Positions 28,832 through 63,937 of a stretch of 64,000 nt of DNA are shown here, piece by piece (within the stretch, counting starts at the first letter, position 1; every line of letters starts with the position of its first letter). The DNA comes from Styela clava (taxonomy: Eukaryota; Chordata; Ascidiacea; Stolidobranchia; Styelidae), in assembly GCF_964204865.1 (NCBI RefSeq), contig NC_135262.1:17165650-17229649 (forward strand). Reading direction: 5' to 3'. Made by a program: the position numbers and the translations under genes. The notes beneath the pieces were generated by a model that was not told the origin of the DNA, ran no database searches, and worked only from the letters and a program-made list of their open reading frames with translations.

Positions 28832-31800
28832 CAGTGGCGGCGCGTGGTCATTTTGACAACCGGGGCAAGCTACTGCGGGACCAAGTCACCCCCATCTACG
28901 GGGACAGGATGAGCGCTGTAAGTTCTCCCATCATTTTATGAGTATAAAAACCATTCCATCGGTAACAACCAATCGGCAAAAACAACAATTTTTAACGATA
29001 AGAAAGTGTTTTTAAAACCGGTCCAAGTCAAGGGATTAATAAATATAGACATAGTTTATTTTGAAACCTCTTTCAAAAGGAAAGGCAATATTTACCCAGA
29101 TAAATACAATGACATATTAACAGAAACTTCGGGAAAGCAGACAAAACCTAAAATAAGGTTTAAAACGTTACTATGAAGAAAGGAAAGCTAATGCAAAGAT
29201 AAGGACATGCGTCGCTCACTCATAGATATATATGCTGCTAGACTTCTACTGCTTGAACATATGTGCAACACGCCGCGGTTTCTTGGAAGCAAAATGCTCA
29301 ATAACGCGCTGATTAAAGTCATGCATCCCAGAAATAACGTCTCTGTGAATGGATAAAACAGCCAAGGAATTTTATCTATCTTGCTTCATTGTGTTTCTGG
29401 GATACGTTTTAATACGCTTCAGCGTGCTGAATGTTCGCTCTGCGTCGGCGGAAGAAATAGGCGTCGTCAAAATGATGTCCAGAAATTTTGCAGACGCCGC
29501 AAAGGTAGTTACTAGAGTGTTATCTATGAGGAACCCATAGAGCGCGCAAGTTGATGTGATGTTCAAAAAAGTTTGATTGGTGTATATACATCGCAAATCA
29601 TTTTCCAATTTACCCACGCTTATCATGGGATAAAATTTGGAGACAGTAGCCGACAAATGGATGGGAAATTGACGTGCAAATTTTGAAAAATTTTTGGGGT
29701 TCATCAAAGAGAACGCGGCAAGGTGTTCAGTGCGCAGACGATCGCCTATTTAATTCACCAGAATGTCACAGCATTCCTTTGCAGACAAAATCAAACGCTG
29801 CGTTGTTTGCCCGCGGCATAAAGAAGCACTCCATGTGTCGTCGTATTTTATTGTTTCCCGGATACGAGATACAGCATCGCAGAAGTCTGAAATACACGAC
29901 TGCACAGACGCTCCATCCATTAGCCTTGACTGCAATGCGCCGTATAATACATCCACGTGATAGAATATTGTGGAGAAAAAAGCGAGAAAAAATGAAAACT
30001 CACCATCTTCTAGCAGACGCTTTAGACCTGCCGCCTCCCTCACAGAGCGTTCGTCCCAAACCGGAGAGCTCTGAATGCCATTGAAACACTCAATGAGCTC
30101 AGACCTAATTTCGGACACGCCCTGCACCACGCGTGATTGGAAGTTCCAACGTGTTGGTGCACAAGCTGGGAGACGGCGGCTACATATCTGGCGAAGGAGG
30201 TCAGAGCGCTTCGGCGAAACGGAAAAAAATGAAGAAAACCCCGAAACATTTGCAAAAAATATGCGGACGAGAGGTGTATCAAGACACATATTTTTAATAA
30301 CGAGGTTAAATTGGTGTGCATAACAATGTAAAGAATGCGCATGAGGAAAATCTTCTTTTATATAAACTTGAACACCATGTTTCGACCCACTCATGACTGT
30401 CGCGCCGTCATAAGTTTGAGCTATCAATTTTGACTTCGCGTTGTAAGGCTGTAACACTTCTTTCAGTACAGCCGATATCCCGCAAGCTGTGCGATCAACG
30501 ATTGGTACAAAGCTGTGAAATCTCTAGGTAGGTTTACCATCTTTCACAAACCGAAAAATCACAGCCAGTTGGGAAACGCACGTGATGTCAGTTGTCTCGT
30601 CAGACTGAATCGAAAGGGACTGGCAATTCTCAATTTCCAGAGCCAAATGTTGTAAATAACTTTTATACATTGAGTCGAGCAAATCATTTTGGATATCCTT
30701 TGATGTCCCTTTCGAAACAGTTGCGGCATCAAGATGATCTCCACCATATCCAAAAATACCCCTCTATTAGAAGAGCCAGCCCGTTCATCGTGCCCACGGA
30801 GGGACAGCTCGTGACAACCAATGAACTTCAAAACATCTATCAATCGACCGAGAACATGGCGGTTTTTTTCGACGTTTTGGTTGTGCCGACGAATAGAAAC
30901 CGCGCGTCCTTCATCCAACTGTGCTGCAATATTAACATTTCCGAATGTTCGGTATTTTACTGCATTGTCCAAATGCTCCATAGAAGATTGATGATCCCTG
31001 GCACGCTCGGAAAGATGTTTAAGATCTCTAAAACCAAATTTACACCAACGTGAGTCACGGGCGGTAGCAAAAAGTAGGCAATAAAAACAAAAAAGTGCAT
31101 TTTTGTCCTCGCTGTAACACAACCATTCGTGTTTTTTATACCAAGTTTCTGCGCAGAATGTACGCCGACGCTTTCCTCCGTCATGGGATTGTTCCAGTGA
31201 ACAATTTTTTGGTTGATAAGGCCCAAGACGTTGTACCTCTAATTTTTGTTCCAGCGGCAGCTGCGAAAACGGAGTGCGAAGTAGTGCATCAACCTTATTC
31301 ATTATGAGGTCTAAGGCTAAGAAATGCGAAGCCGGAAAGAAGTGAGGAGCTCAAAAGGAATGTGGAAAATCGAAAGCAAATGGACTAAAGGTCTCTAACT
31401 GATTTAAATATCGAAACAAGCGACAAAAACGAAGGCGAGGAAACTATCAACTCTTCAAGCAACCAACGAACGAGAAGGAATGCGTGAATATGTCAACACG
31501 TTGTTGTAAGAAACGTCGGCATTGTGTCGTCATAATTTCGGGGCTAGCCCCAATCGGCCCCGATGATTTCGTAAAAGAAACAGAAAACAAACGAGACAAA
31601 CGCGGCGAGTGGAAGTTAAAGAAAGAATACGATATACAATGAGCAACCGGGGCAAAATCGGCGTCGCCCCGTCGACGTTCGGCGAAGGCTTTGCGAGCGA
31701 AAAATGAACCATGTCGGGAGAATATGGCTAGTGTAGACAGTCTGTGCAACCGATATTGAGGTATTTTTCGAATATTTTTCATTATACCGAAAAAACAACC

Positions 31801-32374: not shown

Positions 32375-33620
32375 GAGATAACTAATTTTGTTCGCCTACT
32401 TTACATCAAGTTGTGTAAAGGGACTGAAACCCACGGGCATTGAGTATATTCACTTGGCTAACACAAACAGTCCAAAAATTCGTAATAGAACTAATATAAG
32501 GAAAATTGGAATAAAATTATGGCCTAACCCTAACCTGATACACATACCACTGGAGTACCTATCTGTAATGGATACCAATAATGTTGATTCTGTTGAACCA
32601 GGACCAGCTCTAGAAGCACAAATCTTCTTGGTATGGAAAATCTTTCGTCACCAAAGATCGCGCAGTTTACGAAATTTCTCTCATAACCTTCCAGAACAAT
32701 TGGCTTATTATTATGCCTAAAATGAGCTTCATTTATTTTTACGATTTTACCCCTTGTTCGCGAGTGGACTTGCAGGAGACACTGATAGAATCTGATATGA
32801 TCAAAGTTTATCAAAAACAGAATGCCAAAAGTGCGGTGGTGAACAAGAGAAAGCCAATGTAGTGGTATCTCATCACTCAAGAAAACTTGCACGAGTGTGA
32901 CCAATACTATTCAAAAGAAAAATCTACAGTCAAGAAAATTATAAGAAATTCTGGTCATTCTATTTTACAACTATTGATTAGATTTTAAGATCAACCGCAA
33001 GAAAAATCCTGAAAACCATCTAATATCCAAACACATATAACACAAGCTGAATCCAGGACTGCAACCAGTACTATATTTATTCATATTCACAATGTCCTTT
33101 CCCAAAAGTACATTATCAGATAGCAGAGTTCCAAACAGTAATACTGAATTTGATTGAAATTGATTTCACCACATATAGAACACCTTTATACATATGACAC
33201 AATAGTGGCACACGCTATTCAAATAGTATGATATATCTTAGTACAATCCATCTGTTAAAGATAGGGGGTACTCCCCTGACTCTCATATCTATGTCCTTAA
33301 ATCTCCCACACAAACGAGCCATTCAGCTGATGATTAGCATGAAACTAAATATACTGGCTTAAAATTACATTATGCACTGCCCAATTAAGCAAAACGCTAT
33401 TTTGCTCTCGGCCAGTTTGTACACAGCAGTTGACCCAATAATGGCAGCACTTATTGACTGATAACTGTAAAAGATTGAGAGATAATTTTTTGAAAATATA
33501 AATACAATTCTGTGTGATGCGAGTGCCAACGAACATGATAAAAATAACTGCTTTCTGAATTTTGTGACAAAGTCTTCGAAAAAGTTTACATTACTCATGT
33601 AGCCCTTGCTCTCATCCTTG
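32375..33620. repeat. Tandem duplication, copy 1 (duplicated eIF2-beta 3' end)
   Basis: 1246 bp almost identical to 33700-34945 at a constant offset of 1325 bp; I counted only three substitutions. It carries the last roughly 9 codons plus stop of eIF2-beta and its 3' flank in minus orientation, without the rest of the exon, so it is a non-functional gene tail. It also contains a short element with TAACCCTAACCTGATACACA. Confidence 0.9.
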
Positions 33621-33701
33621 GGATTGTTCCAGTGAACAATTTTTTGGTTGATAAGGCCCAAGACGTTGTACCTCTAATTTTTGTTCCAGCGGCAGCTGCG
33701 A
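33619..33701. repeat. Filler: 83-bp copy of the nearby hAT transposase gene at the duplication junction
   Basis: Matches 31184-31266 over its whole length, from TGGGATTGTTCC to GCAGCTGCGA. It sits exactly between the two 1246-bp copies, with a few bases of overlap at both edges. Confidence 0.85.
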
Positions 33702-34945
33702 GATAACTAATTTTGTTCGCCTACTTTACATCAAGTTGTGTAAAGGGACTGAAACCCACGGGCATTGAGTATATTCACTTGGCTAACACAAACAGTCCAA
33801 AAATTCGTAATAGAACTAAAATAAGGAAAATTGGAATAAAATTATGGCCTAACCCTAACCTGATACACATACCACTGGAGTACCTATCTGTAATGGATAC
33901 CAATAATGTTGATTCTGTTGAACCAGGACCAGCTCTAGAAGCACAAATCTTCTTGGTAGGGAAAATCTTTCGTCACCAAAGATCGCGCAGTTTACGAAAT
34001 TTCTCTCATAACCTTCCAGAACAATTGGCTTATTATTATGCCTAAAATGAGCTTCATTTATTTTTACGATTTTACCCCTTGTTCGCGAGTGGACTTGCAG
34101 GAGACACTGATAGAATCTGATATGATCAAAGTTTATCAAAAACAGAATGCCAAAAGTGCGGTGGTGAACAAGAGAAAGCCAATGTAGTGGTATCTCATCA
34201 CTCAAGAAAACTTGCACGAGTGTGACCAATACTATTCAAAAGAAAAATCTACAGTCAAGAAAATTATAAGAAATTCTGGTCATTCTATTTTACAACTATT
34301 GATTAGATTTTAAGATCAACCGCAAGAAAAATCCTGAAAACCATCTAATATCCAAACACATATAACACAAGCTGAATCCAGGACTGCAACCAGTACTATA
34401 TTTATTCATATTCACAATGTCCTTTCCCAAAAGTACATTATCAGATAGCAGAGTTCCAAACAGTAATACTGAATTTGATTGAAATTGATTTCACCACATA
34501 TAGAACACCTTTATACATATGACACAATAGTGGCACACGCTATTCAAATAGTATGATATATCTTAGTACAATCCATCTGTTAAAGATAGGGGGTACTCCC
34601 CTGACTCTCATATCTATGTCCTTAAATCTCCCACACAAACGAGCCATTCAGCTGATGATTAGCATGAAACTAAATATACTGGCTTAAAATTACATTATGC
34701 ACTGCCCAATTAAGCAAAACGCTATTTTGCTCTCGGCCAGTTTGTACACAGCAGTTGTCCCAATAATGGCAGCACTTATTGACTGATAACTGTAAAAGAT
34801 TGAGAGATAATTTTTTGAAAATATAAATACAATTCTGTGTGATGCGAGTGCCAACGAACATGATAAAAATAACTGCTTTCTGAATTTTGTGACAAAGTCT
34901 TCGAAAAAGTTTACATTACTCATGTAGCCCTTGCTCTCATCCTTG
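33700..34945. repeat. Tandem duplication, copy 2 (contains the genuine eIF2-beta 3' end)
   Basis: The copy in place: its right edge runs into the real last exon of eIF2-beta, and the stop codon is at 34920. The rest is the gene's 3' UTR and flank. TTTATT (minus AATAAA) motifs occur near 34400 and 34060, so the UTR could be about 520-860 nt. Confidence 0.85.
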
Positions 34946-37900
34946 CTCTTCTGCCTGTGACAGCTTGGAAACCTGATTTGATGCTTACGACGGAGCAGCG
35001 TGATTGACATACATTACATCGAAGAAAATATAATCTATCCTTTCTCTCAAGAACTGTGTCAGGTGAGCGGCAGGTATGACAAGTCACATATTCCTCTGAA
35101 AAAACGAGAGTAAGAATGTCATGTACTATTCGGATATTAATTTAAAAAAAGTCAACAACATTGGCTTAATCCAGGGGTGTGCAAGGGCGGCCTGCTGGCC
35201 ACAACCCGGCCCGCCAAACCATTTCGTGTGGCCCTTTCCAACATTCAGATTTTTCCCCATCAAGCATAAAATCTTTATCACTACTTTTCTTTGAAGCCAT
35301 GATCAACGGCAAAAAAGCAAGAAAAAGCACACAATCACAAAAATTTATTCACACATGTTATTCTGCTAACATCTTGATTCGTCGAATGGTTGAGAGGCAG
35401 ACAAAATGCACGGTTTGAGTGGTGTCATCTCACTAGGTCGTGCGCTAGTCTCAGCTCAGTTGCAGAGCTCCCAATTTCCATTTGAAGATTCCAACAAAGA
35501 TTACAAATTAAAACATACTTATGTAACTTCTCAGGACACTTTCAAGTTGTTTTTGTTGGAATCTTCCTTTTATAATGAGTTGATTGTTTCCGTCAACAGA
35601 ACCACTAAAATAAAGAGTATATTTATATAAACTTGAAAACATATCCACTCAGACTTTGAATTGATTATAGTGAAAATTGCGTCACCAAGAAGCAAGAGGA
35701 ACAGTTAGTCTGGTTGATTTATCCTGTTGCTTTGATTTATTTAACTCATTTCAAGAAATCGGAAACCCGACAGAAAATTATTTGAAAAATATCATTTGAA
35801 AGTACACTCAATGCAGTGGCATATACAATCAATAACAAATTAAACCTTTTTTCGTTCTTCAAATAATTCAGTTTTGAATGGAGTATGAATTCCAACGACA
35901 AGAAGCAAACACACTCACGACTAACAAATGGAAATAAATGCTACGAACCTCGTTCCAAGCTCAGCGAGAATAAAAGAAAGGCAATGTTTTGGTTGTCTTC
36001 GAAGGCTGTAAAAAGAAGAAAAATAGTAAAAAAATAAGCTCGAAAAATCATGAGAATACTAGAAATAATTCAAACCCGAAAATTTTATTTTTTAGAACTG
36101 CAACATTGCTCTTAGGTATACAGCGTATGAAATCGCTAAACACAGACCAACTACACATGGGCTCAAAATTTAGTAGTATGGAACACATTGATGAACAATT
36201 GCATTTCATGTGAGCATATGACTAGTTTAACTTACACTGCGCATATTTCTGTGAAGTTAATAAAAGAGGTTTTTCTTGTTCCAACACGAGCACATTGTGG
36301 GGGTCTCATTATAAATCTCTTCTTTTCACCGGCGACCATTTCTGGATTTTTTTTTCTCATGATGTCAAATACCCTTGCCAATAACTGAAATGAATAAATT
36401 AGACATTTTACACGGGATTTACAGTTAAATGAGCAAACAGATAGCCAAGTGTGCCAACTAAGTACATTTATCCATCAAATATTCATTTTTATTTACAATT
36501 CTTCTCCTGATAGAGGGACCAAGTAAGAAGATAACAGTTGACACAAGGGTACTCATATCATATATGAACAAACTTGGCTCAGACAAAAACATCAAATGAA
36601 ACCACATTTTGTGTACCACGTGTTAATTACATTAACATATTCATAATAATAAAATAACACTTTAGCATATCAATAAAGGTGTTGAAGAAAAATCTGTTAT
36701 TAACATTACTATAGATATCATGACATTTTAAATAAATTAACTGCCGCCCTCTCATCGTTATTCGGAATAGAAATACGAGTCTGCAGAAGTATTTACTCAA
36801 ACCCAACTAATTCAGCCAACGATATACATGCAATGACATAACCAGGCCAAAATGAAGATACCAGGTTAGAGTTAGCCCATGATTTTATTCGATTTTTTCT
36901 TATTTTAGTTCTATTACGAGTTCGGGGACTGTCTGTGTTAGCCAGTGAATATACCCCCTGTCCATAAGATTCAGTCCCCTTACACATCTTGATGTAAAGT
37001 AAGCGAACAAAATTAGTTACATCTATATTGCTATACACACTCCTGGAGCGCCAAAATGGAAATATAGAATGTGTGAATTAACAAACCTCTTCATATGTAT
37101 AGTCTCTATCTGTTCCTGCCCATGTTGATTCTCCTGGAGTTACATGAATTTCTTCTTGTTCTGAAATAAACAAATGAAACCCATGAAAATGTGTTAAATT
37201 ATGCATAGAACAAATTTCGACAAAAAATTGACAAAACAAATACCATTTTGTTCCTCAACTTGGTCTGCGAAAGCAACTTCTTTGCCCTTTTTCTTTTTCT
37301 TCTTATGAGTTAAATCGAGTTCTTCTTCTTCTCCGTCTTCTTTCTATGGAACAAAACGTATTATCCAATAAGAATTGAGAACAGGAATAATACTTAGAAC
37401 GGTGGACTATAAAAAGTATTCAGATATAAACTTTGTAGATAACTGATAAAAATGACATTCTATATAAATAACATTAAATTTAACTACCATACTGATGAGA
37501 TAAAAACAACCAACACATAAAGTAACTCACAATACAATTTCAATAAAGAAAATATTAAAATAATTTACTTTTTCTTGAGCTGTGCCCTCATCCCCAGCAT
37601 CACCTGCAAAATATGAATAAACAAGATATTTTAGATTTATTTATGCAGAGAGATGATAAAAATATTAAAAAAAACTTTTTCCTATAGGCACCCAAAGTTT
37701 TCACCGTAAGTTTCTACAGGTCACATAATGAAATGTATTGTTTTAATTCTGTTGGACCAAAAGTATTACATTGATGCAACATAATTTATTCATTTTTATT
37801 TACACCATTTTTATTTCACCTTTTCATCCTCGGAATAAGAGCAAACCACGAAAACAGTTTTATCGTCAATTAAAACACAATTTAAAGCACAAAATTAGTA

Positions 37901-42817: not shown

Positions 42818-44430
42818 TTAATATTTGCAAACTAAATGAGACTTGACTTGTTTTTGAAAAGATTTTTTGGACTTTAACGTCTTCAAATTTAGGGGAAGAG
42901 AATTCCAAAGTTTGGGTCCAGTAAAAGACAAGGAATGCTGACTCACAGATTTACTCATGAAAGGTACGAATAAATCAGAACTACTTCTTCGGTTGGAGGT
43001 ATTTTTGACAAGTATGTCGTTAAAGCAATTGGGCAGCGCATTATTAAGGAAATTGTAATCTAGGGATAATATTTCAAATTTCATCATATCTTCAACCTTA
43101 AATATATTTAGTGATTTGAAGTAAGGGTCTACACTTTCACGTTTTCTTTTACCAAAAACTATTCTTAAAAAATTATTACAAATACTCTGCAGTTTTGAGA
43201 CAAGTGTTTTATTACCATGAAGCCAGACTGAACAACAATATCGAATATGGCTAAGTAGTAATGATTGAAACATTGCTAGTAGAGCTGATTGATCAACACA
43301 CTTGGATACTTTGGCAGAAACTGCTAGGTTTCTTTTAGTTTTACGAATAACATGCATTATTTGTGATTTCCATGACAGATTTTCATCAAAGATAACTCCT
43401 AGAAATTTTATTTCTTTCCCTCTTTCAATTTCATTGCCATTGAGCAGTAGTTTTTTTGAACAACTCACACTTTTATGCTTGCTTGGATGGAATAATACAA
43501 ATTTAGTTTTGTTAGCATTAAGAGATAATTTATTAACTAACATCCAGCTATGAATGTCGGTTAGTTCTTGGTTTGCAACTGTGAATAGATCTTCAAGGTT
43601 TTTCCCATGAAGAATCAAATCAGTGTCATCAGCAAACATGATCGACTCAGAGGATTTCAGACACCTGGACATGTCATTAATGTAAGCTAGAAAAAATAAT
43701 GGGCCAAGTAAAGATCCTTGTGGAACTCCGTGCTTCATGACACAAATATTTGTAGACAATGAGTTGTCATATTGCACAATTTGCTTCCTGTCTTGAAGGT
43801 CCTGATCCAATTGAATGGGACGCCTCTAATTCCATAGTGATAGAGCTTAGTTTTGAAGATTTTAATGAATAATCCACTAGATAGTGAGTGGTTGAGTATA
43901 TATGCCTTGATATCAATGATATCTTCTGGAACATATTACTGCAATATTTTGAATGGAGTACAATCGATTCCAAAACTTGAGTTGGACTTTGGCAGTTCGC
44001 ATAATTATGATGCAGTTGGCTATTGATTGCAATGATGTAGTTGACCTCAATAACATAGATGGGAATACCTGCTTTCCAAGATATGAGAGGTGTTTTTTTG
44101 TCATAGCTAGCTGGTTGAGCCATATTGTCAAGCAATCTTTGTGTCACTTGGGTAAAGTACTAAATTTATTTGCAATTTGTGTACTACCGCAGTCGAGTTC
44201 AACAGATGGACAGAAATTGCTTTTATTTTCACCAATTAGTTCATTAATTGTTTTTCACACTGCCTCGATTTGATTTCTTTTTTGGAGTAGTCGAGCTTGA
44301 AGATTCCTGCATTCATTATATATTGTGATTTGTGTCATCTATCTTTTTATTATTAATTAGTTTCTTATACAGTTTTTGTTGATTTTGCGTAGCTCAGTAT
44401 CGTACCAAGGTTTGGATATTTGGTTTGTCT
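42818..44430 (-). mobile_element. 5'-decayed non-LTR retrotransposon (LINE) with reverse transcriptase
   Basis: An open frame from 43810 to 42818 (330 codons, no true start) covers the reverse transcriptase from GVPQGSLLGPLFFLAYIND through FADDTDL, KFLGVIFDENLSWK and SHIRYCCSVWLHG to the C-terminal FTGPKLWNSLP. These motifs place it with Jockey/CR1-like LINEs. Upstream, 43811-44430 still reads as fragments (YHYGIRGVPFNWI, PWYDTELRKIN) in other frames, with many stops. No endonuclease domain is seen. It is an inactive 5'-truncated copy between eIF2-beta and the micro-exon gene. Confidence 0.9.
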
Positions 44431-45067
44431 GTTTTGCTGTGTAGAAACAAATCAAAACATTATATTATTTATGGTGCGACAAAACTAAACAAACAACAAA
44501 ATAAACCAGACTAAAATATGACATGAGGCATAGCCTACTGCTGATTTTAACAGTGGTGTCATTGGCTAAGTCACAAGTTTGACAGAAAGTGAGTGGGAAT
44601 CCTGGGAAACCAACAAAGAGGGCCACTTTCGTGTTTCACAATAGCAGTGAAAGAGATATAAAAGTAGCTGTTTCCTAATGGCGTTGTGGCAAACAAAGTG
44701 CGAACACTCAAAAAAATGATTTGTTAGCCTGAAAAATTTCTTTATTGAAGATTAGGTAGCAGATTGGCAAACAGTAATCACAAAACCTGGACCAGTCGAA
44801 AATTACAATGCGTCAATTTTCGCATGCACCCCTGACTGACGATTCAAACGATCTGGGACTAGTGACGCATGATCTAGCTCACGCATAAATCAAGTTCTAC
44901 CGGTCAAGTATATCACCCCTGAAGCCAACAAGTCTATATACACTTGACATGTTATTTTTTAAGTATAATATTCTTCTAACCAGCATTACCAACTACTTTA
45001 AAAGTTATGTAGCTCGCCAATCTCATGAATTGAATATATATACAGAGAAGAATATTGCCACCATACC

Positions 45068-45073
45068 TTTATT
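45068..45073 (-). terminator. Polyadenylation signal of the micro-exon gene
   Basis: AATAAA on the minus strand, 188 nt beyond the TAA at 45261-45263, within the context TTCAATAAAGG. It gives the terminal exon a 3' UTR of roughly 200 nt. Confidence 0.55.
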
Positions 45074-45260
45074 GAACAATGGAATAAAGAAACATGATAA
45101 TAACGTTTTGGTTTCCACATGATATTATTTTTCACAATACAGACAGAATATTATTATGATGAATTGTAGTTAACTATAGTCTAAATATATATATTTTCCC
45201 ATGCACTTTTCTTTTGATTTGTAATGTTTTGAATGTTTCCTCGAGCAACGGCTTCCTTGT

Positions 45261-48200
45261 TTAGTTCTTCTGCAATAATGACAAATTAGCACATCGACGG
45301 TGTGGTGAAAATGGAAGTTTGTGAAGCAATCCAGACATTTTTCCCAGCATATTTGTAAGCCGTTTTTATGACTATTACGGGTGTTTGACAGTTTTTAGGT
45401 ATTTTGGGGGAATTTAGGATCGACCAAAATAATTCGAGGGATAAGTATTTTTCCGACGAAGTTTAGTCTAGTTCATTCGATCAAAAATTAGTCCTGAAAA
45501 GGCTGCGAAAGAACGATTAAATTAGGTATCAGAACTGAATAACACGTAGTTAAATGCTATTGAGTGAGGATTTTGGTTATGAATAAATACATAACACAGT
45601 TTGTAATCGGTAGCTCACAAAAACACTTTGGGGAAAGATATTAACCAGAATTTTTTTTTTAAACAACAAATAAAATGGGTAGCTTAGTGCTAAATTTGTC
45701 TTGTGTGATAACTGCATTAGCTCGAAATTACCAAAATTTCGCAACATTTTGGCACTTCAGAATCAATAATCATCATTAAATCACACATCAAACTAAATAT
45801 CAGCATTAAAATTTGTTTATCAGTGTCAGTCCTCGTTTTATATATGTAAAAAAATAAAGTAACCATTCGGTCATCTAATATTTAAATACGATGGAACGCT
45901 TCTTGTTACTTTCAAAAGATAATATCGTCACGCTAATAACCGAATTGCGTAAGTCATTTTTGGCGATTTTGAGTTTTTTATAAAATAGGTATTTATGTAA
46001 TGCTGCGCACCTGTCTGTTACCTCAGATTTTATTTTAAGAGTTCTGAAACCCATAAAAATGGAGATTTAGTATGACATGCACATTTGTGCAATTGTTTCG
46101 TCATAATGATTTATCATTGTTACCGCAGTACTATTGTGACGTCACAAAGGCAAAATAACCTCGGCTATGTATTTTTGAGTTTTTGCATCTCGGATTCTAG
46201 CTAAGTGCGTATTAATTTGAATTTATACTACAGTATAGGAAGACGTGCACTTGTGATATTTACTGTCCGAGTCCAATTCACCTTGGTTGGCTTTTATATT
46301 GGGTGCATTGCTGTTCTTAGTCTTATTTCGGTGGGTGTGCAGAACGTGTTATATTGATGAAATATATATTTTTAAACATAAAAAATAATGTAATTGAAAC
46401 TGATTAGCTATTTTGGGGATTAGACATTGTAGATAATGAGAATTACATTCGTTTTTGGAATGTTTAGTTTTCAGGACTGGTAAAGTAAAGTTGCAAAATT
46501 GCGTATGTACCCAAGTCATAGACACATTTCTGCCTAAGCCACAGTGTGCCATTATGACGTCACTTAGCTGCGTCATACAAATTAACTTAAATCCGGCTAC
46601 GATCAAAAAATTGACCATGGTAAATTATTGACTCCCAATGGTATAACAATATCATTAGGAAGTTTTTTACGTTTTTCTCAAAACTGCTAAAATAGACTTA
46701 CGCAATTCAGTTATTAGCGTGACGATATATATATGCTATCTATGGATCTAACGCATTGGTTACAAGACATTTTTCAACCAAACTTTTCTTTGATTATTGT
46801 TTTAATCTGGAGAACTTCATTGGAGTAAATCAGTGTATTGACAAAACCGTTAAATATGGATTCATACCGATAAAAACATAAATTCAGATCACAATTCCAC
46901 TTACCTTCTCGTTAGAACGTATTATATCTGCGACATTCTAAGATAAAAATTTTGCAATGAATTCTTATTAGAAAATGATACATATTATATATATAGCGGT
47001 AGAATTCGCTTTGTTATAATACTATTCATTTATCCTTAGCTGAATTGAAAAACAATAACTTCATTTAATTTGTAATCACAAAATAGTTGACGTTAGAAAA
47101 GAATTCATATTTTTGGAAACCATATTGGCCTATATATATAAAATTGGTATTATTACGTATAATAATGTTTTTTCATGTGTGATTTCGTACTAGAAATTTG
47201 CGCTCTTTGAAGTGAGTATTTTTGATTGGAGTCAATTTCAGGGAAAAATGACTGAATTATTGAAGTCAACAACAGTTATTACTTACTTGTGCGGTGTTCA
47301 AAATCGGACTGTCTTTCTGTAATGTACAATATTTATTTACTACTAATAACAACGAACAAAAAGTTAATATTTTTCTCCATAATTTTACTTTAGTTCTATT
47401 TTACCACTGATTCAAGCTCTATTGGTATCGTTCTATGAATTTGCATTCATAATAATAATACTTACTATTTTTTGCAGAAGTCCAGTTCCAACGCTTCCGC
47501 CCTTAAAAATTTGAATGATTCATTATCTTATCTAAAATCATGTACTAGTTCTTTAAATAGAATCATTTTCTGTTACTCGCTGAAAAAAGTTGACAAGAGG
47601 ACATTTGGAGAGAATTATAGTTTCAAAGTTATCCATGATGCTTACCATTATTATTTTATAATATCGATTCTGGCTTTTTGTGTCTTCTTAAATATAATTG
47701 GTTTTCAGACATTTTGCAGATATATTCATTTTAAACACAGGGACAACGAAATGGGTTCAGAAATATATATATACAGTCCATTGTCACAGACCCACCGCAT
47801 GTCGATAAATTACTTACTCTGGTAGCATCGGTAGCATCACTCGACGGAGTCAATATGTCACTCCCTACCTATAATATATAATTTTAGTTTTAGTATATAT
47901 TTCAAACCAATTGGAATCTCAAAGTGATGAAATATGTTGTAATTTTATATTTTACACAGTAATTTTACTTTCTCGGGGATGTCATGCTTCTAAATTTTCT
48001 GTTATAGATGGAACATATAGTTTGAATCATATTTATTAATCGCTACCAACATTCTAATTTATTGTATTCAAGTTGTGAATAAATCGGGATTATCTTAACT
48101 TATACAAACGGATTTCAAAATAAAATTTCAACAAACTTACAGTAATCCCCTTTTTCCACGTCTCCGTGCTCTATAAAATAATAAAAAGACGCATATATAT

Positions 48201-51200
48201 ATATAAGATACATAAATGCATGAATATCACATCCAAATGCTCAAATACTATAGTAATTACAGATGTGAAAACTTTAGTAACACATCGGAAGAAATTATCG
48301 AAGAAGATATTCAATATTTGTCTGAAAAAAGAACAGAATAAAGAACATACTTGGTATTTTAGACTGGCAAAAATATGAAGCAAAATTTATCTACTTTATC
48401 ACAAAATGTTATTTATCAATCAGTATATATACACGAGTTTCCATGTATGATTACAGAAATGTAGCGATTTTTTGCCACATTCAACGGTTAGCAGTCAATA
48501 TTCAATGTTTTTCTTCTTCTCGGTATTATAAACAAAAGCAATTTCAAAACTCGTATACTGGATGTTTATTAAGCAGTTTTGTTGAACAGATTAATCATTG
48601 AAGTATAGTGTTTTTCGAAGTTTGCTCCAAAATTACTCACTGTTGTCGGTGTAACATCGCTAGACAAAAGAGGGGTTTTCTGAAATTCACGAAAAAGTAG
48701 ATATTACTTAAGTTTACCAATAACGACAATAATATAACATACTGCTCAAATTTTTGCCCAAGGAGATTTGCTGCTTCTATGTATAAATTCATATGTTGGT
48801 TAGGAGCTGCGGAACTGGCCATAACGCAATCTAGTCGAAACTTGGCCGCACAAGTATCACAAGTCAGTTGTTGTTTCTATCAAAATGACACAAGACTATT
48901 ACTAGATTGATTGTAATAATCAATGATTCGATTCATTGGTGGATGATACAGCGAAAATTCCAAAAAAAAAACAAGCTGTCCTAGTTCTCAAGTGGTAAGG
49001 CGCCTTTGAAAAGTGAGGCATTATGTTATTTCTAAGTGTTTTATATTTATTAAATGTAATGCAAATAATATAGTTTTATTTAGGCTCACCGAATTCGTGC
49101 TGATTTGCAAAGTTGGTTCGTTCGTCTCTCGCTTGGAAGGGAATCAAAGAATAGTTTATTTTAAAACAACATGCATTCAAAATAGACTAACAACACTAGT
49201 CATAAAATTATTTTTTGGTTACTCGCTTTTCGAGTGGGTAGTCAATGTTGGCACTTGTCATACTGCTTGGATATCAGAATGCATTACAGTCTTGAAGCCT
49301 GCGTTATAATTGAATAAATTTAAAAAAAAATGGTTCTTACCGCTTCAGGACGTTGTATTTTTATCTAATAAAAAAAAATTGTAGATTATCAAAAATGTGA
49401 CTACACCTTATCTGCCCGTCGCGCAGAATCATAGATAAATTTATTTTTATGAATTGATGTTATAATCATTGTAGTCGGAAATAGGAATGAAGTATATTCA
49501 AACTTTTTGAAGTAGGTGAGGAAACAAGCGTCGAAATTTTATACGTTCTATAAGTCGTGTCTTAATATCTCATTAAAAGTTGAGCAATCTATTGTTTTAG
49601 TAAGAAAAATCGTGAAGTAAACACTACTGTTTTGAGAATACACATGTACGCACCGTAAATTTTGGATTTTGTTGGTTCGCTCCTTGACTCTAAAATATAA
49701 TTAAAATAAGTTTTGTTGTGTGTAGCATACAATCTTTCAAGGCTTCTATATGTTTTGTATGAAATGACCTACCTGCTTCACGTTTTGTTCTGGATTGGTA
49801 TTTCCCTTATAAAAAAAATTATCCAGTATTAGTAAGAATCAGTAACCGAGTAACGAAAAAACATTATTGTATACATCGAAAAAATGTATTGGTATTATAA
49901 AAAAAATAACTCTGCAAATTGCAGAAAAGTAGAAATATTCCACTTTTCTCCATTTTCTAGAACTTATACGCATCAGAGCTTGAGGAAAAAACGATTGTAA
50001 ACTGTTATCAAAAGGAAAAATCTAGTTTTTATATAGAATCGACCACTCTAAATTTACTACAAAAACTATTATTATAAAATACTTAGATAATATTCGATAC
50101 TTGAATCTAATTCAATTCTTCTATTTTGATTATTGAGCATTTATTTGAAAAAGGGTCGAGTTTATTATATTCAAATCACTATAGTGCTGATTTTTCCATG
50201 GTGTCAAATCGATATTGAGATGGACGAAATAAAAATATCGTTATTTAAAAACTTCTTAAAATTTACCATGATTTATTGAACGCATGTGAAAACGCTGCCA
50301 TCGTTTGGAATTGTATTCTCTGGAACTGTTCAGACCTTTAATAAACTATTTTGTTCGATACAAATACCACGTTACCACTAACTATATAATAACGAAGAGC
50401 ATGCTTACCGAACGACCTAGAGCTATCTCCGATGAGCCTACTCTGATATCGACCTAAATAAACCACAATGATGTCAACCAAATTTGGTAATGAATATCAA
50501 CCACGTTTTGCTGAAAAACAGAATAGTATACTTACACCAGGATTATTATTCGCGTTCTTCTGGCGTGGAGTCAATTTGTCGTTGCGTCCCTGTAAAATAC
50601 AGTGTGGATTTTTACGTACTGTTTTAAACTCCAATGCAGTGGGAAGAACGAATTAAATGGTTTCTCTGTTGATATATAAAACAATGAAAATGGCAAGAAT
50701 GACTGAGCTAAAATGTAAACATTTCTTGAAATCAAGTCTTTAAGCTGACGGGATAACATTTTCTTATAGTGTTTCAAGTGTCAAGACTGTGTTTAGTAGT
50801 TTTCCTGTCTCGAATCAAAAATATTCCAATAAAATGAAAAAGATAGTTGAATAGCTTGCGGCAAATCTTACCACAACAAGTTCAGGTGATGTATTCTAAA
50901 AACAAACAAAATAAACATTGAATATATTGAAAATAATAAACACTTTCATTAGTATTAATTGTGGGTGACCTGTAATAATAGTCAATAATGAAAATAAAAC
51001 AACTCTTCAAAACGAGTGGAAATATGCAACCAAATGACCAACTTTGTTAGTGATGTATATAATAGGAAAAAGAATGTAAACTTACAGATTGGCTGTTCGG
51101 CATCTGATCTCCCCGTTTTTCTGTCTAAAATAGGTGACAGTTTTTAAAAAGATATTATATAAAACTATTGTGTAAATGCAGACCAGAATTGAACAATTCG

Positions 51201-54200
51201 TCTCTGAAAATCGAAATAAAAGCCAGAAATATTCCTGTAACTTCCTAACGCGCAACGGATAGAAATTGTGACAAGGATGCTATGTATAGATAGAATATAA
51301 GGCTACAAAAATTTTATGGCAACTCATTGGGTTGTCAATACTTGACTTTCGCTGAGCGTTTCTATTTATGACGCGAAGAGGTAAATATCTCGGTATCTCC
51401 AACAATATTGTAACTCAAACTCAATATAGTAAATAAGTAAAAATAAAAAAGATGTTGTTTATTTACCACTATTTGCAGAGGACGCACTCGATTTGTTGGA
51501 TCGGTTGTTACCTGTGAAACCATGCAGTTGGTTGAACTATAAATTGGCAGCTTGACAACATAGTTGTTAAAATAAGTTTAACCCTCGCAACAAATGACAA
51601 GGCTGACACTAGCTATACTGTAAGTGTATTTCATGAACAAGATTTGTTAATTGTATGTTATATTTTAAAAATGTAATGTAACTTCTAATTTAAATAGCTT
51701 ATCGATATTAGATACAAAACACCACAATCGCCATATTTATTGTTGGCTCAATATTTCATGGTTTTTCATGATATCAGTAACTTACCCCAGTCTGTATAGT
51801 GGGCTGAATATATAAAACATAAATAATGCAATAATATTTCAAATTGAACATATTGAACTATATACATATCGTCTTATGGCTTTTCCACCGACAAAAAATT
51901 TAAAGATTAACCTAGTACTGCTTTAATGGAAAATGTTAGAAATGCATTCTTATGAATATTTTCATTCCTTTGCTTTTTTAGAAGTTAATCTGATTATCTT
52001 CAAAATCTTCAATATTAAAAATCAGCCATGAAATTACCGTTTGAACCATTACTTGCATATTGTATCAGACTTATATTTTCAATTAGATGTTAAAATAAAT
52101 TACTGTATTTTTATTTTACTCACCGCAGATTTGACCTGTAAATATGAGAACGGTTGTTAACATTACATACATTGTACGGGCCTATTTCAGATTAGTAATT
52201 CAGCTCTTGGTCGGTAATAAACATTTCTATTATCTAAGTAATTTACTCGTCGTGGAAGACTGCTGATAGAATAACTGTGCAGATTCTATGTATATATATG
52301 TAAATACCGTAGATTTGAATCTGATTTGCATGATCGCTCAGAGTGCGTGAGGTGCCGTTGCGTTTTAGCAACAACTCAGGGTTAAGATTCCAGGTTTTGG
52401 GAAACGTGTTCTAAGTGTTAAGACGCTGCGATATCGAGTCAATAGATCAAATGTATTAGGAAGGTTCGCGAAACCGACTACCTCCACTATCAAATCCATT
52501 TGTTTGTTGTGAATCATTTTCGTCCAGATATGGGTTGGTTATCGCCAAGAAGAAATGATTCGCCATATGTCCGAACCGCTTTATTGGTATGCCTATCCCT
52601 CGAGAATACCAAAAACATTGCAAAATTGTCTATGAACTGATACTCCCGAGGTGGGAAATCCTTATAATTTATAACATACATACATATAAAAAACATACCC
52701 CTTTGTTAAATGAAAACAATCTCGTACGGCCAGATGATGAACTTGATCCAGTATTCTTAATTCAATATATAGATAAATATAACAAATATTATATAACCAA
52801 TATATATACAAATTATTATGTATTCGGTTGAAGTTTTTTTCAACTGATTTTACGTGATTAATATAAAAAAACATACCCCTTTGTTGAATGAAAAGAATCT
52901 TATACGGCCAGATGATGAACTTGATCCAGTATTCTTAATTCAATATGTAGATAAATATAACAAATATTATTATAACCAATATATATACAAATTATTATGT
53001 ATTCGGTTGAAGTTTTTTTCAACTGATTTTACGTGATTGATGTTATGACTTAACTCTCAGTGCTTGTGCTACCTTTTCACCGAATGGTGTATATGTTGAC
53101 CTTTGACTCCGATATTTGGAAAATACTATTATTAGGTTTTCCAATTTTTTGGAAAAAAAATAAAATTTTGGTTCCAACATACCTTATTAGAGGCAGACAG
53201 TGTAGTTCCCTGTATAATGAAAATTAGTAATATTCACATCATAAACAAGCCAGATATGTGTAGGAATATTATTTTTCAATCTAACCACAAATACTCGTAA
53301 AATATCACTCATTTTTCAATTCAAGTAAAGTTAAAATTAACTCTAATTACAATTAACCTCAGTATCTTTGATTTCAGTTTGTTGATTTTTTTCTTGGGCT
53401 CAGTAAACTACTGACTAAGTGAAAAGAATTGAAGTAGATTCACAAGAAAGGAACTCAGAATGCGAAATATATTTACATAAAAGCAAAAGTAAAACGAATT
53501 TTGTTTTATACATACTTGGTTTGAGTTTTGGTTTTGTGGTAAAAGAGGTTGCTTTTTATTCTGCAATAATATAAATAATTATTATATGTCAAAGCTATAG
53601 TTGGCACCTGCAACGTTTTCGATTAGGTGAGCGCAAACTCTAATTTCCTTGTAGATTGCAATTGTGTGATTTTTTGTCGGCTATAACAAATCACTTTTCA
53701 GTCGTAATTTGCATGCTGCTTTACCAAAAGCAGTTTTTAAACCGATTATATATATTGTTGGTACAAGAGTTAAAAACTATTCAATGTATCAAACAGGAAA
53801 TGTATTTGCTTGAATCTACTTTGAAATTTAAAATATAATAAAATGTTTTGCAAACTATTGCATGTCTGATAGCTCTAAAGTTTTTCAAAACTGGTGGAAA
53901 GGGACGGATGGACATTAAAGTTCTTTTGGAACGCTAAGCCTTAGACTTAGCTATGTTAGCATCGCAAATCACGCATTCGGGTTCAATCCCATGTTCACTA
54001 CCGCACCTAGGGTGTGATAAATAAATTGCGTAGGCAATGGCGGACAGGAAATATTCCAGTTCTACGAAATCCTATTTGATACCAGTGGATGTTGGCTTGG
54101 AGAGCGAGACAAAATCGACGACTTACCCCACTGTTTGAAGTTCTGAAAATAAAATATTTTGCAATCATAATAGATCAAATTGAGTCAAATAAAAGAATGA

Positions 54201-54405
54201 TGTAATTTATGACGTTTTTTTTTAAAAAAGAGGAAATTTTCACAATCAATCAAATCATATAATTCATGTCTAATTCAACTGTTGTCTCAAAATATACTCA
54301 CCCCGTGTTATCACCATTTTCACTCTCACTTCCACACAACCCAAAGCATCCTAGTACTGACTCAATGCTGAGACATATTATCATAATTACAAAAATTTTA
54401 TTCAT
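45261..54405 (-). CDS. Micro-exon gene: predicted secreted low-complexity protein built from about 25 tiny exons
   Basis: I recognise no domain. Exons on the minus strand (length): 54405-54302 (104), 54142 (16), 53560 (45), 53209 (27), 52933 (57), 52755 (57), 52135 (12), 51803 (18), 51511 (45), 51124 (39), 50895 (24), 50589 (54), 50453 (45), 49805 (33), 49689 (36), 49364 (24), 48776 (34), 48659 (19), 48363 (13), 48170 (30), 47868 (51), 47501 (36), 47316 (30), 46937 (33), 45269-45261 (9, TAA). Single numbers give the exon start; the exon runs downward. The sum is 891 nt (296 residues) with no internal stop. Exon 1 encodes a signal peptide (MNKIFVIMIICLSIESVLG) followed by CFGLC. The rest is rich in Asn, Ser, Thr, Gln, Gly and Lys. 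Nearly every exon has a GTAAG, GTATG or GTGAG donor and a YAG acceptor. Nineteen internal exons are phase 0/0. The 48776 start could instead be 48773 or 48770. Individual weak exons may be wrong; the overall architecture is firm. Confidence 0.8.
45924..46726. mobile_element. DNA transposon of about 803 bp in the last intron of the micro-exon gene
   Basis: Near-identical inverted ends of at least 32 bp begin ATCGTCACGCTAATAAC and continue GAATTGCGTAAGTC; weaker symmetry extends further in. The target duplication is unclear, as the flanks are TA-rich. No transposase is seen. Both ends contain the splice-donor-like GTAAGT. Confidence 0.75.
52684..53039 (-). repeat. 178-bp tandem duplication that doubles one micro-exon
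   Basis: Two adjacent copies, 52684-52861 and 52862-53039, each hold one 57-nt exon (52755-52699 and 52933-52877) plus flanking intron. The encoded peptides are NTGSSSSSGRTRLFSFNKG and the same with Thr-to-Ile and Leu-to-Phe changes. Both keep acceptor (GAATTAAG), donor (GTATGT), length and phase 0, so the duplication added 19 residues without breaking frame. Confidence 0.8.
53925..54118. repeat. Possible tRNA-derived SINE
   Basis: A GGTTCAATCCC pol III B-box-like motif is preceded by a loosely A-box-like TTAGCTATGTTAGC at a tRNA-like distance. It lies in an intron of the micro-exon gene. The folded acceptor stem is poor, so this is not a functional tRNA. Confidence 0.4.
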
Positions 54406-55784
54406 TGTGATAAATTATTTTTCGACAAATTTCCTCAAAAAATAACCTGTGACGTGGTGGAAAAAAATTATCATCTAGTAATCTAGTTGATTAATTCATT
54501 TGACGAAATCTTTCGATGCAGTGTGAGAACATGCGAAATTATTAAATATTTCAAATAGAAAAAGAATTATTAAATTAGTATTTTCTTTTTTATTTATTTA
54601 ATAAGTGCTAGGTTTCAGTTACCACCCAATTGTACCATACCATCTTAGGTGCAATGAATTAGGCATAGCATCTAGGCAACACGTTGACTGAACTTTCTGC
54701 GAAACTCAACTGCGGAACATGTAGTGGTTCACGCAGCAGTGGGTCAGTTGTCTTTCTTTACGACCTAGGTATATGGATAAGCATGAACAAATCAAACCTA
54801 GCTTCTTATTATTATTGATAAATATTGCAAAATGTAGTTTCTATTTAAATAGATTTCAAAACTCATTTTAATGTTAATTTCACTGAGCAAAAGAGAGGGC
54901 GTAGATATTAGCAATGCCAATCATATACATAAGATAAAATATTTTCACTGATTATACAAACTCGGAAAATTTTGAGTTCCAGATATATAAAATATGGTCA
55001 GAGGCATATTTTCAGGCTCTTTTATACCTATTGGGTAGCATTTTTTTTATACAACAAAAGACATCAGCGTATGGATACAGACTTCTAATCAATATCAGTA
55101 GATTTATGGCCATAGATAAGTAATTGTTTTTATTCTTTCCTATTCCTTCCATCTATCCCTGATACTTGTCTTGAATATCCAATGGACTATACATCGCTGG
55201 TCCATGTCTTTAAACAATGTTTGAGGAATTTATATTGATATTCAAAGTTTTGCATATGGTTGTGATGAGCCCAAAACAATAGAAACATTATCCCAAGAAT
55301 GAATACATGCAAATAACGCATGGCAAAGAATTCAATGTGTTGCATGCATATGTATTTGAGAACCATTGTGCATTCTCATAAAGAAGTTGAATAAATAAAA
55401 ATCAGTACACGAAGTCTCGAACGTCACAACAATTCCGGCCTCAATATGAATCGTATTCACGGTTATACATTGCATTCTTGTCCAAATTACTGGTCGCAGA
55501 TTGTGTTTTTTAATTGTTTTGCATGCTGGTGGATTAACAGGCACTTGCAAAACAATATTCATTTTAATTTTTACCGTGAAAGGTTTTATATTTTATTTTA
55601 GGATGAGACCTAGATTCGTTAATAATCTATGGTTGAGCTACAAGTAAAATTAAAAATCTAATGATAGCCGTGTATACAACGTTCGATTCTGGTTTATCAA
55701 AGCTTCGAAACCATTGTACAGCGACTATATTTTAACTTTACAGCGTTGAAAATTCTGCAACATTCATTCTGGCAATGTGGTAAT
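54406..55784. other. Stretch upstream of the micro-exon gene
   Basis: No coding exon found. It should contain the micro-exon gene's promoter, but no TATA box or other element stands out. Confidence 0.4.
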
Positions 55785-58721: not shown

Positions 58722-59101
58722 ATATAAGCATACTGCCAATGTCATATGCATTTGCAGTCAATGCTATATGCATATAGGACCAACCAATTATGCATATAGA
58801 GCCAGCCAAATATGCATATTATATCGCCAATTCCATATGCATAAAAGCCAACCCATATACATATACTCATATACATATAACCAATGTCATATGCATAAAA
58901 AGTCAACTTATATACATATGCAGTCAACTCACATACATCCGGCGCCAATGTCTAGTGCACATACTGTACAGCTAATGCTATATGCGTATACAGCCAACTC
59001 ATATGTACATGCAGCCGACTCATATCGTGTGCATATACAGATAACTATTATGAATATACAGCCAATGCCATATGTATATACAGCTAAATCACATCGTATA
59101 A
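58722..59101. repeat. Minisatellite array, roughly 21-22-bp unit
   Basis: Degenerate tandem units close to CATATGCATATACAGCCAA. The repeat leaves a 180-codon open frame rich in Tyr, His, Ile and Met, which is a by-product and not a gene. Confidence 0.75.
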
Positions 59102-60271: not shown

Positions 60272-60462
60272 GCCTATGCATATGAGTTGACTGTATATGT
60301 ATATGACATTGGATGTATATGCATATGACATTCGCTGAATATGCATATGAGTTGGCTGTATGTGCATATGGCATTGGCTGTATCTGCATATAGCAATGGC
60401 TGTGTTTGCATATGGCATTGACGCTATAAATATATGAGTTGGCTGTATTTGCATGTAACCTT
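60272..60462. repeat. Minisatellite array, inverted relative to 58722-59101
   Basis: Units close to GCATTGGCTGTATATGCATA, the reverse complement of the first array. The array originally extended left to about 59850 and is split by the MITE at 59868-60271. Confidence 0.75.
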
Positions 60463-63246: not shown

Positions 63247-63937
63247 TCATGTGGTCTCCAAAACCTCGCATAGGTAAGGGTGCGGTGTTGTACATTTTCC
63301 GTCTGCTAATCTCCAGTTTTTCAATCCCCATAATTCTGCACATTTGTGATTTCCAGAATTGTTTGGTTCCCCAGGAGCCCAATTTGTATCATTGAAAGCA
63401 GCGATCACGCCATCAGACCACGCCCATTTGCCATCAAAATACACAAGACCAATCCAAACATTCTTTTCTGGAGAATCCAACAAAACGTCAAAGATTTGTC
63501 TGAAAATATTAACATAATCAGCCGCAAAGAAAATAAAATTATAGTAAAATTTCATGAAAAAAGGCAAATGAGTTTTGTAGAAGAAGATTTAAAATTCATC
63601 ACTTACTTTCTGATATTGGAATCCCTCACTCCAGTTGCAGCAAGTCTTGCGCCAGATTTTTGACACGCTTTAACAGCATCTGTGTAATCTTGCGTTGTGT
63701 TAATTTTTTTGTATAAATACCCATTCGATGCTGAATACCATCCTTGGTGTAACGAAACCTGCGTCTTTATTGAAATCTTTAATATTGTTATTCAACGTTG
63801 AAACTGTGATGTGTTAACTAAAATATATATTTATAAATGTATACTCACATCATTTGATGATTTCACTTTGTTGCCACTAAGTTGGAGGGCTAATGGCGTT
63901 GTAGATTCATTAATCTGTGACAAATCGTCTGATAGTT
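63247..63937 (-). CDS. C-type lectin domain protein, last three exons (5' end beyond the window)
   Basis: Extracellular carbohydrate-recognition protein. Exons on the minus strand: 63937-63849, 63758-63607 and 63499-63247 (stop at 63247), joined in phases 1/0, 0/2 and 2. The fold's landmarks are all present: GWY...NGYLYKK, the first Cys in KACQKSGARLA, VWIGL, WSDG, EPNN, and the Cys set KCAEL, DGKC and YLCE. The EPN motif usually goes with mannose-type sugar binding. The partner WND motif is replaced by NWRLAD, so calcium and sugar binding may be altered. The first known exon encodes a Ser/Asn-rich linker before the domain. The signal peptide and start are not in this window. Confidence 0.9.

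Follow-up and report, generated by a model that had tools for sequence, protein, structure and literature searches.

The window analyzed here, a 64,000-nucleotide stretch of Styela clava DNA, carries on its minus strand, from position 54405 to 46905, a chain of very small exons that is a genuine protein-coding gene. In the splice model, a 104-nt first exon (E1) is followed by a 16-nt E2 and then by 21 consecutive micro-exons, E3-E23, all in phase 0/0, with a terminal exon (E24) downstream. The features are listed below by window position and strand, with their basis in parentheses.

54302..54405, minus: E1, 104 nt, start codon and apparent signal peptide, phase 2 at its end (splice model)
54127..54142, minus: E2, 16 nt, brings the frame back to phase 0 (splice model)
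53516..53560, minus: E3, 45 nt, phase 0/0 (splice model, frame-blind scan)
53183..53209, minus: E4, 27 nt, phase 0/0 (splice model, frame-blind scan)
52877..52933, minus: E5, 57 nt, phase 0/0, duplicated-exon copy, weak acceptor (model, site scores, repeat comparison)
52699..52755, minus: E6, 57 nt, phase 0/0, other duplicated-exon copy, weak acceptor (model, site scores, repeat comparison)
52688..53041, minus: tandem duplicate of exon plus intron, E5/E6 (repeat comparison)
52124..52135, minus: E7, 12 nt, phase 0/0 (splice model, frame-blind scan)
51786..51803, minus: E8, 18 nt, phase 0/0 (splice model, frame-blind scan)
51467..51511, minus: E9, 45 nt, phase 0/0 (splice model, frame-blind scan)
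51086..51124, minus: E10, 39 nt, phase 0/0 (splice model; frame-blind scan differs at the acceptor)
50872..50895, minus: E11, 24 nt, phase 0/0 (splice model, frame-blind scan)
50536..50589, minus: E12, 54 nt, phase 0/0 (splice model, frame-blind scan)
50409..50453, minus: E13, 45 nt, phase 0/0 (splice model, frame-blind scan)
49773..49805, minus: E14, 33 nt, phase 0/0 (splice model, chain search)
49654..49689, minus: E15, 36 nt, phase 0/0 (splice model)
49341..49364, minus: E16, 24 nt, phase 0/0 (splice model, frame-blind scan)
49090..49131, minus: E17, 42 nt, phase 0/0 (splice model, frame-blind scan)
48641..48679, minus: E18, 39 nt, phase 0/0 (splice model, frame-blind scan)
48141..48170, minus: E19, 30 nt, phase 0/0 (splice model, frame-blind scan)
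47818..47868, minus: E20, 51 nt, phase 0/0, weak acceptor (splice model, site scores)
47466..47501, minus: E21, 36 nt, phase 0/0 (splice model)
47287..47316, minus: E22, 30 nt, phase 0/0, weak acceptor (splice model, site scores)
46905..46937, minus: E23, 33 nt, phase 0/0, weak acceptor, strong donor (splice model, site scores)
45181..45269, minus: E24, terminal exon, two alternative coding ends (splice model, site scores)
45068..45073, minus: AATAAA, likely polyadenylation signal (sequence)

E1 opens with an ATG and a hydrophobic leader that, judged by eye, resembles a signal peptide, as the first-pass annotation of this DNA had proposed, and an in-frame stop starts 12 nt upstream of the ATG. 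The modeled lengths of E3-E23 range from 12 to 57 nt and are divisible by three in 21 of 21 cases, the 16-nt E2 being the exception; 11 of these 21 exons measure 36 nt or less and 18 measure 51 nt or less, and jointly they make up 87% of the 897 nt upstream of the terminal exon. As a whole, the micro-exon series of that annotation was borne out, with corrections to its counts, sizes and splice-site claim. Its estimate of about 25 exons becomes 23 placed coding exons (E1-E23) plus the terminal one; its 9-57 nt size range becomes 12-57 nt for E3-E23, no 9-nt exon having been found; the uniform phase stands, but for 21 exons rather than 19; and the frame is indeed uninterrupted, with 299 codons ahead of the terminal exon in place of 296 residues. 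Since each of E3-E23 consists of whole codons and lies on codon boundaries, their duplication, gain, loss and skipping are all frame-safe, and 21 phase-0 cassettes would in principle allow 2^21 subsets.

The manual choice of exons made use of the frame, and AT-rich sequence offers many AG/GT pairs, both of which lend some color to the view that the chain is an artefact assembled from chance pairs. A frame-blind splice-site scan, in which micro-exon candidates were called without the frame at thresholds of 6/6 and 5/5, argues against this. At 6/6, lengths were divisible by three in 11 of the 12 gene candidates versus 11 of 38 elsewhere (Fisher p 1.7e-4), and candidates both divisible by three and open in phase 0 amounted to 10/12 in the gene versus 4/38 elsewhere (p 5e-6); at 5/5, divisibility by three was seen in 13/16 versus 36/98 (p 0.0018). 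The 5/5 scan reproduced the exact boundaries of 12 of the 21 phase-0 exons, while four of its 16 candidates fall outside the model; at E10, the frame-blind scan favored an acceptor 4 nt downstream, giving 35 nt, which is not a multiple of three. Shuffles and control segments also favor the exon run: in the phase-0 chain search, the gene scored 19.2 with 11 exons and exceeded all 400 shuffles (maximum 7.2) as well as 62 control segments (maximum 3.1), no shuffle or control chain having more than two exons, and under a harsher penalty it scored 4.5 with two exons versus 3.1 in shuffles and 0.1 in control segments. At penalty 2 in phase 0, it reached 76.8 versus a best of 23.3 among 183 overlapping segments per setting elsewhere in the window. 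GC content, which played no part in exon choice, was 0.438 in E3-E23 versus 0.294 in introns, and every one of the 21 exons exceeds the intron mean. It is to be noted that the scores over the gene at penalty 6 were 20.3, 13.3 and 20.3 in phases 0, 1 and 2, respectively, and the tie between phases 0 and 2 is a further point for chance assembly. Since the scores are high in phases 1 and 2 too, they document a micro-exon run and do not by themselves fix the phase; the assignment of phase 0 rests on exon lengths and stop counts, the latter being 0 in 259 codons in frame versus 13/238 and 12/238 in the other frames, for exons hand-chosen using the frame. Overall, we consider a chance assembly hardly credible.

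Splice sites were scored in bits with a textbook PWM. The claim of a clear donor and acceptor for each exon holds for the donors, which score positively throughout the gene (0.9 to 7.7 bits), and fails for several acceptors: scores range from -1.8 to -3.9 bits at E5, E6, E20, E22 and E23, while the acceptors of E2, E10, E14, E15 and E21 lie at about zero or slightly below. Relative to the neighboring ceramide synthase gene, acceptors were lower (p 0.098) and donors higher (p 0.063), neither significantly, and thus site strength provides no argument for skipping. At the 3' end, a good acceptor at 45269 leads to Lys-Asn-stop, and a low-scoring one (-8.9 bits) at 45255 to 24 further in-frame residues with a stop at 45181. 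When the 1635-nt last intron was inspected for a missed exon of 3n+1 nt, none of 34 candidates had two good sites. This intron also contains an inverted-repeat element. The candidate of best-fitting composition, 46282-46321 (rank 6), was left out of the model because its acceptor scores -6.1 bits and it lies within that element. A decaying gene, in which the exon run would be a relic and expression lost, could account for the weak acceptors of several exons, for the ambiguous 3' end with an inverted repeat in the last intron, and for the lack of a protein match in the databases searched; it is highly improbable in the face of 259 codons free of stops and 21 exons none of which breaks the frame, both duplicate copies included.

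The ceramide synthase gene, an identification of the first-pass annotation confirmed by 251 identical residues out of 253 aligned to an S. clava protein, is built from coding exons that measure 58-236 nt and differ in phase; the micro-exon pattern is thus no general trait of the window. Of the other two neighbors proposed, the SLC16-like gene was supported solely as an MFS_1 match, and eIF2-beta was suggested by look-alike stretches, whereas Pfam (five pieces) and PDB sequence searches found none. For the micro-exon gene itself, the 301-aa spliced protein had no database match at E <=0.01 among 7107 candidates (targets of about 166-527 aa), and a 114-aa artificial join of E1-E4 and E20-E23, built to reach short database proteins, had none at E <=10 among six candidates (targets of about 63-200 aa), short proteins being covered through these outer exons. 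There was likewise no match among the S. clava proteins of the searched collection within these lengths, which suggests that such genes may be missing from protein databases. No relative was found in Pfam or among PDB sequences, Rfam at the gathering threshold over the whole window returned nothing for this gene, and a literature search covering few subscription journals found, among the matches listed, no report of a micro-exon secreted gene in ascidians.

E5 and E6 form a tandem duplicate with a start-to-start distance of 178-179 nt and two ungapped stretches that are 95% and 99% identical, and both copies keep the reading frame. Substitutions between the copies numbered 4/57 in the exon versus 2/119 in the flanks, and quicker change of the duplicated exon was not significant (p 0.087). 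Kinship among the remaining exons was not above shuffles. The duplicate documents growth by exon duplication, as expected of a constitutively spliced micro-exon gene making one secreted disordered protein, in which uniform phase 0 would have been left behind as exons were duplicated or were gained without harm to the frame, rather than by selection for skipping. The mostly good donors agree with this, and so do the aphid bicycle genes, which are phase-uniform and whose description contains in its main text no word that starts with 'alternative splic' (PMC9168663). However, the absence of detectable kinship beyond E5/E6 leaves a duplication-only history unsupported, and genes of similar build do skip exons in schistosomes (PMC4015677) and among caseins (PMC12470106). 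Constitutive splicing is a tentative, if substantial, possibility, at somewhat less than even odds.

The predicted protein is rich in Ser, Thr, Asn and Gly, Ser being the commonest residue, and its mature part has no Tyr and two Cys. Its composition and charge-hydropathy place it on the disordered side, the latter near the boundary (0.400 vs 0.427). The product is probably a secreted, disordered protein of about 300-325 residues. SCPP and casein proteins characteristically carry clustered Ser-x-Glu phosphorylation sites. The Styela protein lacks such clusters and has four sites after the signal peptide, scattered at 143, 173, 240 and 296. Tunicates are not known to have SCPP genes, and the protein, Pfam and PDB sequence searches revealed no relative. 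These observations speak against a tunicate counterpart of the vertebrate SCPPs (caseins, enamel proteins), i.e., a secreted, disordered protein made from small exons that belongs to a matrix or binds mineral. We regard this counterpart as quite improbable even though Ser predominates, Ser-x-Glu sites do occur, and CSN1S1 and CSN1S2 are described as having a leader exon with numerous small exons behind it, duplicated as well as skipped exons, and a secreted product (PMC12470106).

We favor, with a probability of roughly 0.5, a secreted disordered micro-exon protein that grew by exon duplication and some of whose exons are cassettes yielding length variants; the data show the exon run, its uniform lengths and phase, a coding composition, the E5/E6 duplicate and the near-identity of the ceramide synthase gene to that of S. 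clava, and secretion, disorder, exon skipping and tissue are steps that we infer. E1 would provide the signal peptide, and E3-E23 would encode most of the secreted, probably disordered protein; the micro-exon block has been enlarged at least once, through the E5/E6 duplication. At least some micro-exons would most likely be cassette exons, and the gene may secrete products that vary in length, possibly at the surface of an epithelium or gland. Exon skipping is permitted by the gene design and is known in similarly built genes of schistosomes (PMC4015677) and mammals (PMC12470106), although uniform phase need not imply it, since bicycle genes have almost all internal exons in phase 2 with no skipping reported in PMC9168663. 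A bolder version, which appears doubtful, is that combinatorial micro-exon genes for secreted proteins arose independently in styelid ascidians, the 21 cassettes of this one locus giving tissue- or individual-specific variants of a secreted surface protein, e.g., for self/non-self or microbial recognition or for the tunic surface.

Should transcripts confirm the model, the design of a signal peptide followed by frame-neutral micro-exons would have arisen again, in a tunicate, with an exon symmetry more uniform than the figure for schistosome MEGs 26-32 (PMC4671649). This would suggest that the architecture lends itself generally, beyond parasites and gall makers, to making disordered secreted proteins that change fast, and it would offer a free-living chordate for studying exon-number evolution and micro-exon splicing; if the combinatorial reading is true, such a system would exist in the sister group of vertebrates.

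The micro-exon genes (MEGs) of schistosomes have a signal peptide in the 5' exon, small and mostly symmetrical central exons and longer end exons (PMC4671649), and exon skipping in MEG-1 to MEG-3 is reported to produce up to seven variants (PMC4015677). The Styela gene is similarly built, with an apparent signal peptide, judged by eye, in E1 and then central symmetrical small exons, which agrees with the likeness to MEGs drawn in the first-pass annotation; because this build recurs in an animal unrelated to schistosomes, an independent instance, as also proposed there, is likely. Unlike MEGs 26-32, in which 26/33 micro-exons are symmetrical (PMC4671649), the Styela gene has 21/21. The schistosome MEG criterion is mostly micro-exons of <36 nt, compared to 11/21 at <=36 nt here, and the host, unlike a schistosome, is a free-living ascidian. 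Neither protein search (E <=0.01 among 7107; E <=10 among six) revealed sequence kinship to a MEG family.

Bicycle proteins of aphids carry paired Cys-Tyr-Cys (CYC) motifs, in contrast to the mature Styela protein, which has no Tyr, and the protein-database searches found no sequence relative. The likeness lies in numerous short internal exons that share a phase: bicycle genes have about 17 exons on average, the internal ones small and almost all in phase 2, and encode fast-diverging secreted proteins (PMC9168663), whereas the 21 internal exons of the Styela gene are in phase 0. With the alpha-s caseins, the gene shares small exons behind a leader exon as well as exon duplication; unlike theirs, which is non-coding (PMC12470106), its first exon is coding, barring an undetected 5' exon. 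Membership in schistosome MEGs, aphid bicycle genes or alpha-s caseins is not supported for any of the three, and distant kinship to MEGs or SCPPs is conceivable at the sequence level. The Styela micro-exon gene is a fresh example, in a tunicate, of an architecture already known elsewhere.

A gene composed of very small exons runs along the minus strand from position 54405 to about 45 kb, and it is real. Its placed coding exons are designated E1 to E23 in 5'->3' order and its last exon E24, and this hand-built exon set is referred to as the model.

54405-54302, minus strand: E1, with the ATG start; codes a hydrophobic leader and ends in phase 2

An in-frame stop begins 12 nt upstream of this ATG, and the leader is, as judged by eye, an apparent signal peptide. 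E2 (16 nt) brings the gene back to phase 0, and all 21 exons from E3 to E23, 12-57 nt in size, are made of whole codons on codon boundaries (phase 0/0). The introns from E1 to E23 measure 82-603 nt (median 285.5), and the last one 1635 nt. The exon run and open frame recognized in the first-pass annotation were indeed recovered with corrected counts, namely, 21 phase 0/0 exons instead of 19, and 299 codons ahead of the last exon instead of 296 residues in total.

Since the frame was used in the manual choice of exons, phase statistics of the model cannot be read as p-values. Exons of 9-60 nt were therefore also scanned with a textbook metazoan splice matrix that used neither frame nor length class, and the gene region was compared with all other window sequence plus its own plus strand. 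At the 6/6 setting, 11 of 12 candidates in the gene were multiples of three and 10 were also open in phase 0, versus 11 and 4, respectively, of 38 in the comparison set (Fisher, p = 1.7e-4 and 5e-6). At 5/5, multiples of three made up 13/16 in the gene and 36/98 elsewhere (p = 0.0018); 12 of these 16 were model exons, amounting to 12 of the 21 phase-0 exons, while the other four, one of them E10 with a different acceptor, were absent from the model. When micro-exons open in phase 0 were chained, the top-scoring chain over the gene joined 11 exons and reached 19.2. None of 400 dinucleotide shuffles exceeded 7.2, and none of 62 control segments exceeded 3.1 or two exons; a harsher penalty lowered the gene chain to 4.5 (2 exons), the maxima for shuffles and control segments then being 3.1 and 0.1, respectively. 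Under softer penalties of 0, 2 and 4, the automatic exons matched the model in 20/22, 16/16 and 13/13 cases, and at penalty 2 the gene chain reached 76.8 versus a best of 23.3 among 183 overlapping segments elsewhere. Chains in phases 1 and 2 scored well too, reaching 47.0 and 59.6, respectively, at penalty 2, and 13.3 and 20.3 at penalty 6, where phase 0 had 20.3; the chain score thus proves the micro-exon run but cannot by itself choose the phase. Assignment to phase 0 rests on the exon lengths and on the stops, which number 0 in 259 codons in frame and 13/238 and 12/238 in the other frames. GC content, which played no part in exon choice, offered an independent control, being 43.8% in E3-E23 versus 29.4% in introns, with 21 of 21 exons exceeding the intron mean. 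A neighboring gene served as local yardstick.

Between 15163 and 10017, minus strand: ceramide synthase exons

Its coding exons measure 170, 121, 119, 58, 144, 236, 160 and 63 nt, and its introns lie in phases 0 and 2.

At the 3' end, two acceptors could open the last exon. The one at 45269 is fair (2.2 bits) and would add two codons and a stop, and the one at 45255 is poor (-8.9 bits) and would add 24 codons and a stop ending at 45181; an AATAAA begins at 45073 on the minus strand. The last intron contains an inverted-repeat element (45922-46728; 52-nt arms, 88% complementary, 703 nt apart) that looks like a small transposon. Upstream of E1 on the minus strand are TATAAAA motifs at 55026 and 55051, and a strong acceptor-like site (6.0 bits) at 54446, 41 nt 5' of the ATG, which may belong to a 5' untranslated exon or be a spliced-leader acceptor.

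The predicted mature part is rich in Ser (13.6%), Thr (11.4%), Asn (10.7%) and Gly (9.3%), followed by Lys (6.4%), Gln (6.4%) and Pro (6.1%), with two Cys and no Tyr or His; by charge-hydropathy it falls on the disordered side, near the boundary (0.400 vs 0.427). The predicted protein retrieved no Pfam domain and no relative in the PDB sequence search. Two further searches, each over a limited length range, gave none in a set of 5.8 billion proteins in which S. clava is represented. It is either lineage-restricted, too divergent, or unannotated in the length ranges reached.

As to the growth of the exon block, E5 and E6 belong to a unit of exon and intron that was duplicated in tandem, its copies spaced 178-179 nt apart and 95% and 99% identical over two stretches aligned without gaps. 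The 57-nt exons differ at 4 positions and the flank (~119 nt) by 2 substitutions and one single-base indel, with no significant difference in substitution rate (p = 0.087). Since the duplicated unit is phase 0, the frame stayed intact. Duplication is observed for this pair, and we infer it for the remaining exons, among which no kinship rose above shuffles; exonisation of intron sequence is a possible alternative origin.

Among the neighbors, the ceramide synthase was borne out: when its pieces were aligned to the protein 'ceramide synthase 4-like' of S. clava, 251 of 253 residues were identical, and one of the two mismatches falls at a hand-joined junction. This match places the window in Styela clava or a nearly identical ascidian. 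Because a second, diverged ceramide synthase 4-like protein exists (P0002, 244 aa), this enzyme is at least duplicated in S. clava. Other features are as follows.

23.0-23.9 kb: MFS transporter exon (Pfam)
29375-31350, minus strand: transposase-like open frames, presumably of hAT type; Pfam gave only a sub-threshold DUF4371 match
32382-35013: large tandem duplication; near-identical open frames recur at 1325-nt spacing (32382-32717/33707-34042, 32533-32910/33858-34235)
42821-43825, minus strand: LINE-type reverse transcriptase frame (RVT_1, E 8.4e-13)
58766-58819: TATGCATAT stretches related to the following minisatellite
60275-60454: minisatellite, ~8 copies of a 22-nt unit around TATGCATATG
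63250-63588, minus strand: C-type lectin domain exon (Lectin_C, E 6.9e-11)

The MFS exon agrees with the transporter annotated at first pass, whose wording 'SLC16-like' is retained from there. The eIF2-beta also named is only suggested, by a stretch near 37-39.5 kb that we take to be typical of it, alongside lysine runs; Pfam and the PDB sequence search left it unconfirmed.

Under this architecture, splicing together any subset of E3-E23 would preserve the frame. Exon skipping is reported for genes of the same build, namely, the micro-exon genes (MEGs) of schistosomes (PMC4015677) and the alpha-s caseins (PMC12470106); for the aphid bicycle genes, equally uniform in phase, the words 'alternative splicing' are absent from the main text of the paper describing them (PMC9168663). 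Relative to ceramide synthase, a control of only 7 introns, the mean acceptor was 1.1 vs 3.9 bits (p = 0.098) and the mean donor 4.2 vs 2.2 bits (p = 0.063); site strength does not decide between skipping and constitutive splicing. Use of at least some exons as cassettes would be somewhat more probable than constitutive splicing, and a combinatorial reading of the gene appears plausible.

Overall, this is a micro-exon gene in a tunicate, without detected relatives, and the literature matches listed included no description of an ascidian gene of such build. Membership in the MEGs, the bicycle genes or the secretory calcium-binding phosphoproteins (SCPPs, including caseins) is not shown; the searches made gave no sequence support for MEG or SCPP kinship, bicycle membership failed on phase, and 11 of the 21 S. 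clava micro-exons fall within the MEG size limit. The likenesses are in build: uniform phase is common to this gene and the bicycle genes (PMC9168663). MEGs work alike, 26 of 33 micro-exons being symmetrical in MEGs 26-32 (PMC4671649). The alpha-s caseins share the leader exon, the small exons and exon duplication, with skipping as a casein feature (PMC12470106).
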